Shown here: positions 45,740-51,487 of the stretch, piece by piece | Numbering within the stretch: the first letter of the stretch is position 1 | Layout: each line of letters opens with the position of its first letter | Assembly: GCF_000763385.1 (NCBI RefSeq) | Contig: NZ_JQFA01000005.1 | Coordinates: 186,001 to 250,000 of the forward strand | Direction: 5' to 3' | From: Leptolyngbya sp. KIOST-1 | GTDB taxonomy: Bacteria; Cyanobacteriota; Cyanobacteriia; Phormidesmidales; Phormidesmidaceae | Length of the DNA: 64,000 nucleotides | Notes under the pieces: generated by a model | The model's input: the letters and a program-made list of their open reading frames with translations, nothing else | The model's database searches: none | Told to the model about the DNA's origin: nothing | Program-made: the position numbers and the translations under genes

Positions 45740-48700
45740 CGCAGAACCCGCTGAGAATAAAGGCTGCCCAAAAGTAAGGGTCGCTGTAAGGATCTTGTTT
45801 TAATCCTACTCTATCGGCATTGGTCTGGAGTTCTTGAATTTCAATAGCCAGGGCATCGTAAACACTGCCATCGGCGGCTTTAAGATCCGCAGTGAGGTGG
45901 GTCTGTAGCCAGGTGGCTAGATCTGCATAGGTGACCCCGCGCAGCCAGGTCTGTGCTCGATGCAGCGCCACCGCCGGGGAAGCCCCAGCCAAGAGCTGCT
46001 CGTAGAAATACACCATCAACCAGGCGTTGGACACCGACTCCACCGTCCACAGGGTGCTGAGCACGGCGCTGGCTCCGGCTTTGAGAAAGGCGCTGGCCAG
46101 CCCCACGTACTCGGCCTGGATGGTCTCGGTGCCCGTCACCGCTGTTTCGCAGGCGGCCAGGCTGACCAGGCCGCAGCCCCCAAGTTTCAGGCTCCGGATG
46201 GTCTCGACGGTGAGCTGGTCGGTGCCCGCCAGGGCCAGGGCCGACTGGCGGGGTTGGCGATCGTCAAAGAAGCCGTGCCCAGTGAGGTGGGTCAGGGGAG
46301 CCCCCGCCTCCAGCGCTGCTGTCACCCTGGCCTGGGTGGCCTCGTCGGCGGCGATGCGGGTGGCCTGGGCAAAGCCCTGGGCAATCAGCGCCGACTCGAT
46401 TTCGGCAAACACCAGGGGGGCCAGCTCGGCGTTGGCGGGTTCTTCGATGCTGAGCAGGGGCGTTTGGGGAGTGACGGGCCAGAAGGGAGCCCGCTGCCCC
46501 AGGGCCAGCCCCACCTGGGCACTGGGCAGGTGGGTGATGGTAAAGGGCGGGGTGAACAGGCTGGGCAGGGGCAGCCGATGCAGGTGGCGGTGGGGCACCA
46601 GCCGCAGGTGGGTAATGCCCGCCTGGGTCAGGGTTTGCTCCAGGGCGGGGATGTCTAGAATCTCCCGCAGGGTGGCCAGCCGCCCCGGCACGTTTTGTCG
46701 CCAGGGGTGCTGCTGCCGCTGCCAGGCGTCTACGGTTTTGCCCTTGGCGCGGTAGTCGGTGTAGTCGGCATCCCAGGCTTTGAGCCAGGTTTCTAATTTT
46801 TGGGAGGTCTGTACTGAGGCGGTGATGGATGGCTCTGGGTGGCCGGGCAGCACCACAAAGCGGGTGAGGGCATCGGGGCTGAGGTGCCACTGCACCAAGG
46901 CAGTGGAGCCGTGGGCCAGGGCGGCAATCTCGGCTGCGCTGGGGCTGGGGACGGTGTCTTGCCAGGTAGCCAGCAGCCAGGTGAGGGTGCGGTTTTTGTA
47001 GCGATCGGCGGCCTCCAGGGCGGCGGCGGTGGAGCCCTGCTGCACCAGCAGGTCTACGGCCAGTTGGCTAAAGCCGGAGAACTGTAGCTCTAGCTGCTCT
47101 CGCTGGCGGGGGGAGGTTTGGCTGTTGAGCAGGGTGCGAAAGACCGCTAGCCCCTGCTCCCGCAGCCGCGCCGCCTGGGCGGCATCGCCCAAACCCAGGT
47201 GGGCGCGAATGGCGTCTTGCAGCACCTGCAAATGTTCCCGGGGAAACGCCGCCGCCGTGAGTGTGGCGAGCGCCTGGCTGTACTCGCCAATGGCCTGCCG
47301 AAAAAAGTGGTTGGCCTGCTCGGTAAAGCGCCCGTGAAAAAAGTGGGCCCGCCCCATGACTCGGTGCAACTCCCCCCAGCCCAGAGGGTCTAGGAGGGGA
47401 TTAACCTGCCGTAACCCCATTTGGTAGGCGGCAATCTGCCCTGGATAGCCCCGCTGGTCGAGGGCAGGGTCTTGCAGCGTCGCTGGCAGAGTCAGACGCA
47501 CAGAGGTGTGGCACCGCTCAGACGCCCCGGCTGCACTTCCTCGGTTTATCCAGGCTTCGTGATAGTCGGGTTTGATGGCTAATGCAGCATCGCAACACGT
47601 GATCGCTGTCTCGTACTGGAAAAAGTAAAGCAGCGAATTTCCTTTGTTGTTAAGCGCTTGATACAAGTCGGGATTTATAGTTAACGCGGCATCGTAGCAG
47701 GCGATTCCTTCAGATAGCCTCGCTAACGACCCTTCTAATCGTCCCAAATCACACAGAGCAACTCCCTTATTGTAAAGCGTTTCGTAAGCGTCGGGTTTGA
47801 GGTTTAGGGCAGCATTGCAGCAGTTGATCGCTTTTTCATACTGACCCAGGGCATACAGCGCATTCCCTTTCTTGGAGAGCGCTTCGTGATCGTCAGCTTT
47901 TAGGGCTAAGGCGGCATCAAGGCAAACGATCATAGCCTCATATCGGCCCAGCGCATGCAGAGCAATTGCTTTGTTAGATAAAGTATCGTGTCTATTGGGA
48001 TTAAGAGCTAAGGCGCCATCGTAGCAGGTGATCGCCGCCTCGTGCTGGCCCAAGGCCGTTAGCGCATTCCCTTTGTTGGATAGCGCGTTGTGGTCGCTGG
48101 GATTGAGGGCTAAGGCGGCATCGTAGCAGATGATCGATCCCTTGATATCTCCAGCCGCAGACATTAAAACACCCTTGACTCCCCAGGCTTGATAGTAGTT
48201 TGGGAAAGCTTGTGTAGTGTGTTCTATAGCAGTCATTGCCCCAGCTATATCGCCGTTTTGATAAGTCTGAATAGCTTTTTTAACTAACTTTTCAGCGGTT
48301 TGCTCAGCGCCTGTTGGGGCATTCTCTACAGATCGAGGCCCATTTGCAGAAGATTGGGCAATTACTGCTTGATCTGACAACGGTTTTTCACCATCTGGAG
48401 TCTTATCCCGCAGCAGCTCCCGCCCGATCGCCCCCGCCAGCACCCCCAACTCCCCACAGCCCATCTCCCCCAGCCGCACCATCCGCCCCGCCAGTTCCCG
48501 GTTGGGCTCCGGCGACCTCAGCAGGCGCGTATAGCCAAACCGCCGCAGCCAGTCCGCAAAGCGGCGATCATACACCCGATCCCCCAGGTGGGCCAGCACC
48601 TGGGCCTCGCCCCACCCCGCCGCCAGACCATCCATCGCCTGCATCCACAAAAACTCATAGCCCGTGTCATCCAGCGGGGGCAGGGGCGGCGGGGCGGGCG

Positions 48701-48764
48701 GGGCAGGCGGGGCAAACCACCGCCGCCACCGCCGCCGAAGCCATTGCCAGAGTCGATGCAGCAT
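45726..48764 (-). CDS. TPR-CHAT protease (caspase-like)
   Basis: A 1012-residue protein. The N-terminus has a basic, Pro-rich lead (WQWLRRRWRRWFAPPAPP) and a conserved domain (DDTGYEFLWMQAMDGLAAGW, FADWLRRFGYTRLL). Six to seven TPR repeats follow (about 180-420; CYDAALALNPSDHNALSNKG type), then a helical middle. The C-terminal CHAT domain has THLTGHGFFDD (catalytic His about 830) and VSLAACETAVTGTE (catalytic Cys about 872), both intact. CHAT proteases act in programmed cell death and in phage-triggered systems. Two uncharacterised genes overlap or abut it downstream, and a DUF433/DUF5615 pair lies upstream. Confidence 0.92.
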   Translation of the reverse strand: MLHRLWQWLRRRWRRWFAPPAPPAPPPLPPLDDTGYEFLWMQAMDGLAAGWGEAQVLAHLGDRVYDRRFADWLRRFGYTRLLRSPEPNRELAGRMVRLGEMGCGELGVLAGAIGRELLRDKTPDGEKPLSDQAVIAQSSANGPRSVENAPTGAEQTAEKLVKKAIQTYQNGDIAGAMTAIEHTTQAFPNYYQAWGVKGVLMSAAGDIKGSIICYDAALALNPSDHNALSNKGNALTALGQHEAAITCYDGALALNPNRHDTLSNKAIALHALGRYEAMIVCLDAALALKADDHEALSKKGNALYALGQYEKAINCCNAALNLKPDAYETLYNKGVALCDLGRLEGSLARLSEGIACYDAALTINPDLYQALNNKGNSLLYFFQYETAITCCDAALAIKPDYHEAWINRGSAAGASERCHTSVRLTLPATLQDPALDQRGYPGQIAAYQMGLRQVNPLLDPLGWGELHRVMGRAHFFHGRFTEQANHFFRQAIGEYSQALATLTAAAFPREHLQVLQDAIRAHLGLGDAAQAARLREQGLAVFRTLLNSQTSPRQREQLELQFSGFSQLAVDLLVQQGSTAAALEAADRYKNRTLTWLLATWQDTVPSPSAAEIAALAHGSTALVQWHLSPDALTRFVVLPGHPEPSITASVQTSQKLETWLKAWDADYTDYRAKGKTVDAWQRQQHPWRQNVPGRLATLREILDIPALEQTLTQAGITHLRLVPHRHLHRLPLPSLFTPPFTITHLPSAQVGLALGQRAPFWPVTPQTPLLSIEEPANAELAPLVFAEIESALIAQGFAQATRIAADEATQARVTAALEAGAPLTHLTGHGFFDDRQPRQSALALAGTDQLTVETIRSLKLGGCGLVSLAACETAVTGTETIQAEYVGLASAFLKAGASAVLSTLWTVESVSNAWLMVYFYEQLLAGASPAVALHRAQTWLRGVTYADLATWLQTHLTADLKAADGSVYDALAIEIQELQTNADRVGLKQDPYSDPYFWAAFILSGFCDESH

Positions 48765-48948
48765 GGAGAAAGAGTGAAGGCAGAAGGATAACAGAAGCGC
48801 TAAGCCAGTTTAATTTAAGCAGCTAGCGTCCTAAAGCGGTGTCCATCCTTTGTCACCACGACAAACGCCTTCGACAATGCCACCGTCGAGTATTGAGCAA
48901 TGACCCGCTTCAGCTCACCATGCACAGCCTCCAGGGTAGAGGGCACCA
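48464..48948. repeat. Direct repeat, copy 1 (CHAT 5' end plus DUF5615 3' end)
   Basis: This stretch covers about 100 codons of the CHAT N-terminus, the spacer and the last 44 codons of the DUF5615 gene. It recurs in the same orientation at about 49775-50259 with high identity. Confidence 0.8.
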
Positions 48949-49760: not shown

Positions 49761-50075
49761 TTAATACACAGCAGAGTAGTCCGTCTTCCCCAACCGCACC
49801 ATTTGCGCCCCTAGCTTCCGATTTGGCTCTAGCGACTTCAGCAGGTGCGTATAGCCAAACCGCCGCAGCCAGTCCGCAAAGCGGCGGTCATGCACCCGCT
49901 CCCCCAGGTGAGCCAACACCTGGACCTCACCCCATCCCTCCGCCAGGCCATCTATCGCCCGCATAAACAAAAACTCGTAGCCCGTGTCATCCAGCGGTGG
50001 CGGGGGCGGCGGGGCAGGCGGGGCAAACCACCGCTGCCACAGGTGCCGAAGCCATTGCCAGCGTCGGTGCAGCAT
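49761..50075 (-). pseudogene. Truncated copy of the CHAT protein N-terminus
   Basis: A 104-codon frame, about 96 codons of which match the CHAT protein start (WQWLRHLWQRWFAPPAPP, DDTGYEFLFMRAIDGLAEGW, FADWLRRFGYTHLL). It ends after QMVRLGKTDYSAVY, where homology stops. The TPR and CHAT parts are absent. It belongs to the duplicated block 49775-50259. Expression of a short competing N-domain is possible but unproven. Confidence 0.8.
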
Positions 50076-50259
50076 GGAGAAAGGATGAAGGCAGCAGGAT
50101 AAAAGAAGCGCTGGGCCAATTTAATTTAAGCAGCTAGCGTTCTAAAGCGGTGTCCATCCTTTGTCACCACGACAAACGCCTTCGACAATGCCACCGTCGA
50201 GTATTGGGTAATGACCCGATTCAGCTCACCATGCACAGCCTCCAGGGTAGAGGGCACCA
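49775..50259. repeat. Direct repeat, copy 2
   Basis: Second copy of 48464-48948, same orientation, about 1.31 kb away. Spacer and coding parts are both conserved. The copy ends abruptly at 50259 inside the DUF5615 homology. Confidence 0.8.
50126..50259 (-). pseudogene. DUF5615 toxin, 3' fragment
   Basis: The last 44 codons of a DUF5615 gene, nearly identical to 48815-48948. The catalytic N-terminal part is missing. Confidence 0.8.
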
Positions 50260-50314: not shown

Positions 50315-50346
50315 TTGACCCTACACTCCACTGGAGTGTTTACCCT
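50315..50346 (+). promoter_or_regulatory. MerR-family (CueR/ZntR-like) promoter-operator
   Basis: A -35 box TTGACC (50315-50320) and a -10 box TACCCT (50341-50346) are 20 bases apart, too far for normal RNA polymerase use. The spacer holds the perfect dyad ACACTCCA-C-TGGAGTGT (50323-50339). This layout, and the similarity to metal-responsive copA-type promoters, points to activation by a MerR-family metal sensor. No merR-type gene is in the window. Confidence 0.75.
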
Positions 50347-50376
50347 AGGGTAGAGAACGCAGAAGGAGAGCGACCC

Positions 50377-51048
50377 ATGGCAACCAACCGAACCCTGGCA
50401 TCGGTGCTGGCCCTGGCGGCCCTGGTGCCCCTGGCGGCCTGCGCTGGCGGTTCCAGAGACGCGCAGCAAAGCGACCTCCAGGGGGGCCACCACGACCACC
50501 ACGCCACGATGCACGGCGACGCCCATGGGGGCCACGACCACGCCATGGATCTCGGCCCCGCCGATGCCACCTACGACCTGCGCTTCATCGACGCCATGAT
50601 CCCCCACCACGAGGGGGCTGTAACCATGGCCGAAGCCGCCCTCCAGCACTCCCAGCGGCCCGAAATCCGCCAACTGGCGGAGGAGATCATTGCTGCCCAG
50701 GATGCGGAAATTGCCCAGATGCAGCAGTGGCGCGCCGCCTGGTATCCCGACGCCCCTGCCGAGCCGATCGCCTACCACGCCGCCATGAACCATGACATGC
50801 CTATGACCAAGGAAATGATCGCCGCCATGCGGATGGATGTGGACCTGGGTGGGGCCGACGACGAGTTTGACCTGCGCTTTATCAACGCCATGATCCCCCA
50901 CCATGTGGGAGCGGTGGATATGGCGGCAGACCTGCAACAAAAGAGCACCCGGCCCGAACTGCTGGCCCTGGTCGACGACATCATTAGCTCCCAGCAGGCG
51001 GAGATCGACCAGATGGAGCAGTGGCGGCAGGCCTGGTACGGGCAGTAG
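50377..51048 (+). CDS. DUF305 lipoprotein (ferritin-like, possible metal-related)
   Basis: A 223-residue exported lipoprotein. The signal peptide ends in LVPLAAC, a lipobox, and is followed by a His-rich linker (HHDHHATMHGDAHGGHDH). Two DUF305 repeats follow, with DLRFIDAMIPHHEGAVTMAE and DLRFINAMIPHHVGAVDMAA; each carries the paired His typical of this four-helix, ferritin-like family. The family is often linked to copper or other metal resistance. The upstream MerR-type promoter supports a metal role. AAGGAG lies 9 nt before the ATG. The second repeat looks like an internal duplication. Confidence 0.9.
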   Translation: MATNRTLASVLALAALVPLAACAGGSRDAQQSDLQGGHHDHHATMHGDAHGGHDHAMDLGPADATYDLRFIDAMIPHHEGAVTMAEAALQHSQRPEIRQLAEEIIAAQDAEIAQMQQWRAAWYPDAPAEPIAYHAAMNHDMPMTKEMIAAMRMDVDLGGADDEFDLRFINAMIPHHVGAVDMAADLQQKSTRPELLALVDDIISSQQAEIDQMEQWRQAWYGQ

Positions 51049-51070: not shown

Positions 51071-51487
51071 CTACTCCAGCCACTGCTTGACGCGGGCCAG
51101 GTTCTTCCAGTCGGGTTTGCGGGAGAGACCGTCGTCAATGCTCTGCATCACTTCGGTGCGCAGGTCATCGGCCACAGCCATGACCTGGCTGGCGATTTCG
51201 ACATGCTCGCGCACGCCGGGTTTGCCCGCGTCTAGCATAGCCACCGCCAGGTTGACCCGTCCTTGGGGGTCCTGGGGGTTGAGCTTGACCGATTTTTGGG
51301 CTGCCTTGAGGCCAGCGTTAGGTTTGTCGGTGAGCAGGTAGAGCCAGGCCAGGCAGGCCCAGGCGGCGCTGCTCTTGGGGGCGCGATCGCACACCTCTTT
51401 AAAGACCGAAATCAGTTCGGTGGGGTCTTCGCCTTTTTTGTAGCGCTCAATGCCCTCATCAAACAGGGCTTCTACAGTTTGGGTCAT
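51071..51487 (-). CDS. TPR-repeat protein
   Basis: A 138-residue soluble protein with two to three TPR-like helical pairs: LFDEGIERYKKGEDPTELIS, SSAAWACLAWLYLLTDKPNA and GLKAAQKSVKLNPQDPQGRV. It is related to small cyanobacterial TPR proteins without an assigned role and probably serves as a protein-interaction module. Convergent with the DUF305 gene, 22 nt apart. Confidence 0.82.
   Translation of the reverse strand: MTQTVEALFDEGIERYKKGEDPTELISVFKEVCDRAPKSSAAWACLAWLYLLTDKPNAGLKAAQKSVKLNPQDPQGRVNLAVAMLDAGKPGVREHVEIASQVMAVADDLRTEVMQSIDDGLSRKPDWKNLARVKQWLE

Follow-up and report, generated by a model that had tools for sequence, protein, structure and literature searches.

Within the window, that is, the whole 64-kb stretch of DNA that was analysed, a gene for a CopM-family DUF305 lipoprotein (50377-51048) stands alone, its downstream neighbour (51071-51487) lying on the opposite strand, and a promoter element at 50315-50346 ends 30 bp ahead of it. 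The features of this locus are collected in Table 1 together with the best further sites of the same element in the genome. Upstream of the promoter there is a segmental duplication (48458-48948 and 49778-50259; 86-92% identity, spacing about 1.3 kb), the end of which lies about 55 bp from the copM promoter. The duplication leaves shortened copies of the start of a TPR/CHAT gene and of the end of a DUF5615 gene, and between the duplicate segments there are DUF5615, DUF433 and addiction-module antitoxin genes.

Table 1. Features of the copM-type locus in the window, and further sites of its promoter element in the same genome found with model R1 (contig:position)
Feature	Position	Strand	Remarks
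-35 box TTGACC	50315..50320	+	read from sequence; TTGAC in 16/18 aligned sites, TAGAC in 2/18
Predicted 22-bp MerR-family operator ACCCTACACTCCACTGGAGTGT	50318..50339	+	centre 50328.5; from conserved element and symmetry peak
Spacer, 20 bp	50321..50340		read from sequence
Perfect 17-bp dyad ACACTCCA-C-TGGAGTGT	50323..50339		centre 50331; present, not conserved in orthologues
-10 box TACCCT	50341..50346	+	20 bp past -35 box; TA and final T invariant in 18/18 aligned sites
Ribosome-binding site AAGGAG	50363..50368	+	from sequence
CopM-family DUF305 lipoprotein gene	50377..51048	+	223 aa; ATG 50377, stop 51046-51048
Signal peptide with lipobox LAAC (residues 19-22), Cys22	50377..50442	+	read by eye
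His-rich linker	50488..50547	+	8 His in residues 38-55; His/Met-rich yet variable among relatives
First DUF305 repeat, PHH motif (HH 77-78)	50575..50744 (approximate limits)	+	
Second DUF305 repeat, PHH motif (HH 175-176)	50869..51045 (approximate limits)	+	
R1 row 2	C2:1660986	+	before DUF2933 gene; VTT, Csp, DUF305 and Cu-ATPase genes downstream, same direction
R1 row 3	C4:982252	-	before multicopper oxidase; divergent Csp, DUF305 and Cu-ATPase genes adjoin
R1 row 4	C2:1660748	-	before another multicopper oxidase
R1 row 5	C2:1400354	+	before HMA chaperone and copA (copZ-copA)

The description of the product in the original prediction holds. The lipobox is present, the product scores 138.9 bits (1.8e-40) with Pfam PF03713 against a cut-off of 27 and passes the NCBIfam CopM model NF049983 (123 bits against a cut-off of 90), and the His-rich linker and the paired-His repeats are both there, the two DUF305 repeats lying 294 bp apart at the DNA level. 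A phmmer search matched the Synechocystis CopM structure 5fej over residues 67-223 (7e-33). The protein alignment of relatives took in 24 of 30 loci, two of which were set aside, L054 because it starts inside and L057 because it is out of frame; the lipobox cysteine, preceded by a small residue, is kept in 21/22 readable relatives. CopM of Synechocystis is described as a copper-binding, copper-induced protein, and three Anabaena homologues as copper-induced (PMC4335983).

Direct reading confirmed the two promoter boxes and their spacing as first predicted, and the 20 bp between them falls within the 19-20 bp of long-spacer promoters. The same prediction had taken the perfect 17-bp dyad in the spacer for the operator, and this part did not stand. 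The dyad is the single perfect copy of its sequence across the genome; nevertheless, it is weak evidence on its own, since the window holds 15 perfect dyads with 8-bp arms (loops 0-5) at 12 distinct centres. When 17 orthologue sites were analysed together with the window site, pairing within the 32-bp element was highest at centre 14.5 (0.61 of 11 pairs), the second-best centre being 18.0 (0.43), and at the dyad's centre, 17, it was 0.31, with 8/8 pairs at the window site and 1-5 of 8 in the orthologue sites. It is reported that the palindrome centre of 22-bp MerR and HMRTR sites is fixed 8 bp after the -35 box (PMC5045206); centre 14.5 lies at this distance, whereas the dyad at 50331 misfits the rule. 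The dyad was rejected as the operator because it is not conserved and because such dyads are not rare in the window. Judged by conserved symmetry, the predicted operator is the 22-bp element centred 2.5 bp upstream of the dyad centre. At this centre the window operator makes 7/11 pairs; its left half departs from the consensus, and both boxes, the spacer length and the right half are kept.

The element is conserved at copM-family loci. A protein search of 63 family genomes gave a match in 38, and the upstream region was read at the best match in 30 genomes; a 32-bp element with a consensus of about TTGACNCTMYAGYNNNCTRGARTGTNTANNCT stands directly upstream of the gene at 21 of these 30 loci (one per genome, window included). 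With a matrix built excluding the window, the window site scores 39.8, and no score above 8 was seen on one strand of a letter-shuffled control of 339,650 bases. Among the nine copM loci lacking the element, three (L059, L060, L062) have TTTCA-N6-TTTCA repeats in its place, such a repeat lies farther upstream at L063, and L050 has a degenerate stretch. At L065:1386-1528 (G043:C1:120834-120976, minus), a good copy of the promoter lies ahead of a truncated copM relative of which only the final 37 residues are left; this remnant has kept its promoter and adjoins a multicopper oxidase gene.

A model, R1, was made from 18 sites with the window excluded, namely 17 from copM loci plus a second site at L052; because model and pattern alike require a 20-bp spacer, elements with other spacer lengths would be missed. 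In a scan of the host genome, 150 of 2519 first-look candidates were scored, and 12 rows at E ≤ 10 were found among these. The best match in the 6.3-Mb genome was the window site (E = 4e-5, such E-values being rough), and since a model that had never seen the window ranks it first, the 32-bp element as a whole is well beyond chance. The next four rows stand before copper genes (Table 1), and the three Cu-ATPases of these stretches score 612.9, 610.1 and 660.1 bits, above the 397-bit copper cut-off. Row 6 is the opposite strand of the C4 site, and rows 7-12 (E of at least 0.44) have no tested copper gene beside them.

Across the 63 family genomes, R1 matched in 43 at E ≤ 0.01 with stricter filters, and a tested copper gene or the MerR gene described below adjoins the site at 27 of the 30 loci examined. 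Two of the other three (L190, L192) show copper genes when a larger region is considered, and the third (L191) is at a contig end. Because most of the 27 trained the model, independent support comes from the sites of the host's own genome and from L117, L118, L120, L123, L124 and L125. A gene for a SAM-dependent methyltransferase also recurs at the MerR-type element (L052:735-1394, L065:1570-2208, L112, L121), where the elements adjoin copM, multicopper oxidase or HMA-domain genes.

The original prediction proposed a search of the genome for MerR or CueR homologues. There are eight MerR-domain matches, and three small metal-type MerRs were studied, the principal one being encoded at C4:637384-637809 (hereafter C4 MerR); from the named relatives of this protein, the host is probably near Nodosilinea. 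The element was found upstream of 42/51 C4 MerR relatives in named genomes, with controls of 0 in each of 20 column-shuffled matrices and 1/50 in the downstream region. It also precedes 29/30 C4-type MerR genes in the family genomes, the C4 gene included (L092 has none), with scores of 15.7 at both L083 and L084 and 29.2 at L091. The operator of C4 MerR itself is weak (-35 TTTACC, score 13.7) and is absent from the R1 genome matches at E ≤ 10. Since the element precedes its own gene and those of 42/51 relatives, C4 MerR is likely to be a self-regulated activator. The MerR-type class of the promoter, as first proposed, is upheld by the conservation of the element, by the copper genes and by a MerR gene that carries it, though it was reached through a dyad unlikely to be the binding site, the conserved symmetry lying elsewhere.

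A C4-type MerR (at least 84% identity) is present in 16/18 genus genomes with the copM element, and the two genomes without one, G027 and G041, are 83% and 85% complete. The link between the copM element and this MerR is not strict, since three of the four genus genomes whose copM lacks the element keep a C4-type MerR (68-74%); moreover, in three genomes from beyond the genus copM is preceded by the element, yet their MerRs reach only 33-38%. A tested copper gene occurs within about 5 kb of a C4-type MerR at 10/51 named loci, and none of the tested copper genes is near it at the other 41. These neighbours are copZ-copA (L155), copM (L152, L180), Cu-ATPase genes (L169, L174), multicopper oxidase genes (L156, L163, L173, L179, L180) and an ATPase gene at L159, the product of which is of the Zn/Cd type.

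We consider it probable, at roughly 0.7, that the copM-type gene is under the control of the C4 MerR-family activator by a copper mechanism; we infer DNA binding, metal identity, activation, lipidation and operon extents from sequence. A dimer of C4 MerR would sit on the 22-bp operator within the over-long 20-bp spacer and keep the promoter poor. Binding of cytosolic Cu(I) by Cys84 and Cys132 of MerR would then distort the spacer so that RNA polymerase could use both boxes. The product would be exported, lipidated at Cys22 and bind copper outside the cytoplasm, with its His/Met-rich linker and both DUF305 repeats, each of which contains HH, as putative copper ligands. The same activator would also raise copZ-copA, the multicopper oxidases, the stretch from DUF2933 through Csp and DUF305 to the Cu-ATPase, and itself.

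It may be argued that the promoter is indeed MerR-controlled, by one of the other small MerRs of the genome, encoded at C2:1643646-1644083 (the second MerR) or after the thioredoxin-like gene at C2:1647738 (the third). Both are metal-type, the second is 51% identical to C4 MerR, and the window operator shares 14/22 positions with the C4 MerR site, 13/22 with that of the second and 11/22 with that of the third. A related long-spacer element of the TTGACTCTCAAGCCAACCTCAGGGTTTAC type also lies upstream of the second MerR and its relatives on the other strand, at 9/9 scored loci (scores 12.3-24.8; a tenth, L202, partial, was left unscored). Against these likenesses, the core of that element is CAAG/CTCAG rather than the YAG/CTRGA of the C4 type, no R1 match at E ≤ 0.01 lies beside the nine listed relatives of the second MerR whereas twelve C4-type genes have one, and, of the 18 genus genomes in which copM has the element, 9 contain a close relative of the second MerR (at least 81%), or 10 if a partial match is included. 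The third MerR has a different promoter, of the ACCTTGAA type. We regard control by either of these proteins as unlikely, and C4 MerR is favoured by its distribution and by the whole family of sites rather than by the window site alone. At the nine loci of the second MerR (L193-L201) the long-spacer element faces away from the MerR gene and is near-identical. In the host genome (L014:13397-14372), the third MerR, after the thioredoxin-like gene, has the long-spacer promoter ACCTTGAAGCTAGGTTCAAGGT and adjoins a small membrane protein that is MerF-like by eye.

With regard to the metal, copper is the most likely, being favoured by the genes behind the sites: copZ-copA, Cu-ATPases, multicopper oxidases and CopM. 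The geometry of the window site is that of ZntR and MerR (22-bp site, 20-bp spacer), not that of CueR (21 and 19). C4 MerR scores 84.5, 84.0 and 83.5 bits with the MerR, Zn and CueR models. It reaches none of the curated cut-offs listed, CueR's included (TIGR02044, 83.5 against 147.4; NF007590, 56.3 against 244 bits). All 30 C4-type relatives have the second loop cysteine and a cysteine at the ZntR/MerR position, without CueR's first loop cysteine, and one of the 30 has a further cysteine in the tail. We take these positions to be metal ligands by comparison with CueR, ZntR and MerR and from the alignment, and a two-cysteine site of this kind would suit linear Cu(I). CueR proper was rejected on these scores, on the 20-bp spacer and 22-bp site, and on the missing first loop cysteine. 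The 22-bp site with a 20-bp spacer is the geometry described for ZntR (PMC5045206, PMC1526738). This, the near-equal scores with the three models, the cysteine at the ZntR/MerR position and the one nearby Zn/Cd-type ATPase could be taken to mean that another metal (Zn, Cd, Hg or Ag/Au) is the main signal for the regulator, the copper genes being induced within a broader metal response; set against the copper genes behind the sites, with Cu-ATPases above the copper cut-off, this seems quite improbable.

CopR of Synechocystis probably reads TTTCAT repeats, although the literature search gave no passage in support of this. The two full-length copM paralogues of the host, C2:1649030 and C4:1007301, are preceded by TTTCA repeats and lack the MerR element, and thus the CopM family seems to be split between two sensors. 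For the window gene itself a repeat of the CopR kind was considered and rejected, there being no TTTCA-N6-TTTCA in the 64-kb window. That the element is a relic and the gene constitutive or under a CopRS-like system is very improbable: though Synechocystis copM is described as CopRS-controlled (PMC4335983, PMC12292863) and the window operator is off consensus, the boxes, the spacer length and the right half are kept and the repeat that both full-length paralogues possess is missing here. Upstream of both multicopper oxidases of the host (L015:8778-8913, L016:6281-6442), the MerR-type element lies beside two TTTCA-N6-TTTCA repeats, an arrangement that suggests dual control by MerR and a two-component regulator.

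Control by C4 MerR thus remains our preferred reading for the window gene. Taken more broadly, we lean, a little beyond even odds, to the view that a clade of cyanobacterial MerR copper sensors, with an unusual cysteine pair (Cys84 and Cys132, CueR's first loop cysteine being absent) and 20-bp-spacer, ZntR-like promoters, controls a cytosolic-copper regulon of copZ-copA, multicopper oxidases and lipoprotein CopM, while CopM paralogues are under control of the CopRS type. If this is true, many filamentous cyanobacteria possess a MerR-type cytosolic copper sensor, two sensors share out the CopM paralogues of a single cell, and the regulator offers a natural case for asking how a MerR protein could sense copper when it does not have the cysteine pair of CueR. 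The parts are familiar, and a MerR-type copper switch of copM and copper genes in cyanobacteria seems to be little described. The reviews consulted tell copper resistance in cyanobacteria mainly through CopRS of Synechocystis, and MerR and CueR are absent from the main text of a 2025 review (PMC12292863). A literature search, with most subscription journals outside its scope, yielded no description that we recognised of a cyanobacterial copper regulon of MerR type that includes copM. Counting against novelty, one paper counts 22 cyanobacterial MerR-family factors and an HMRTR (Cyanobacteria) group (PMC5045206), and another counts cyanobacterial homologues of copper-responsive systems (PMC10141476).

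The window protein shares with CopM of Synechocystis PCC 6803 two DUF305 repeats with HH, richness in Met and His, and export. However, the Synechocystis protein is described as having a cleaved signal peptide (PMC4335983), whereas the window protein has a lipobox and a His-rich linker; and Synechocystis copM belongs to copMRS under CopR, whereas the window gene is solitary with a MerR-type promoter. With the CueR/HmrR copper regulons of proteobacteria the system has in common a MerR-family regulator, long-spacer promoters and copper ATPase, chaperone and multicopper oxidase targets. CueR is reported to use a 19-bp spacer and a 21-bp site (PMC1526738, PMC5045206), and its regulons to hold cueO, a copper ATPase and in some cases a chaperone (PMC1526738). 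Here, in contrast, the promoters have a 20-bp spacer and a 22-bp site, the regulator appears to be autoregulated, lacks the first loop cysteine and falls below the CueR cut-offs, and copM is included. The ZntR and MerR/HMRTR subfamilies share with it the 22-bp site centred 8 bp past the -35 box and, for ZntR, the 20-bp spacer (PMC5045206, PMC1526738). They differ in that the half-site is about ACYCTMYAG here and ACTCTGGAGT in theirs, and in that the putative targets are copper genes here and zinc or mercury genes there.
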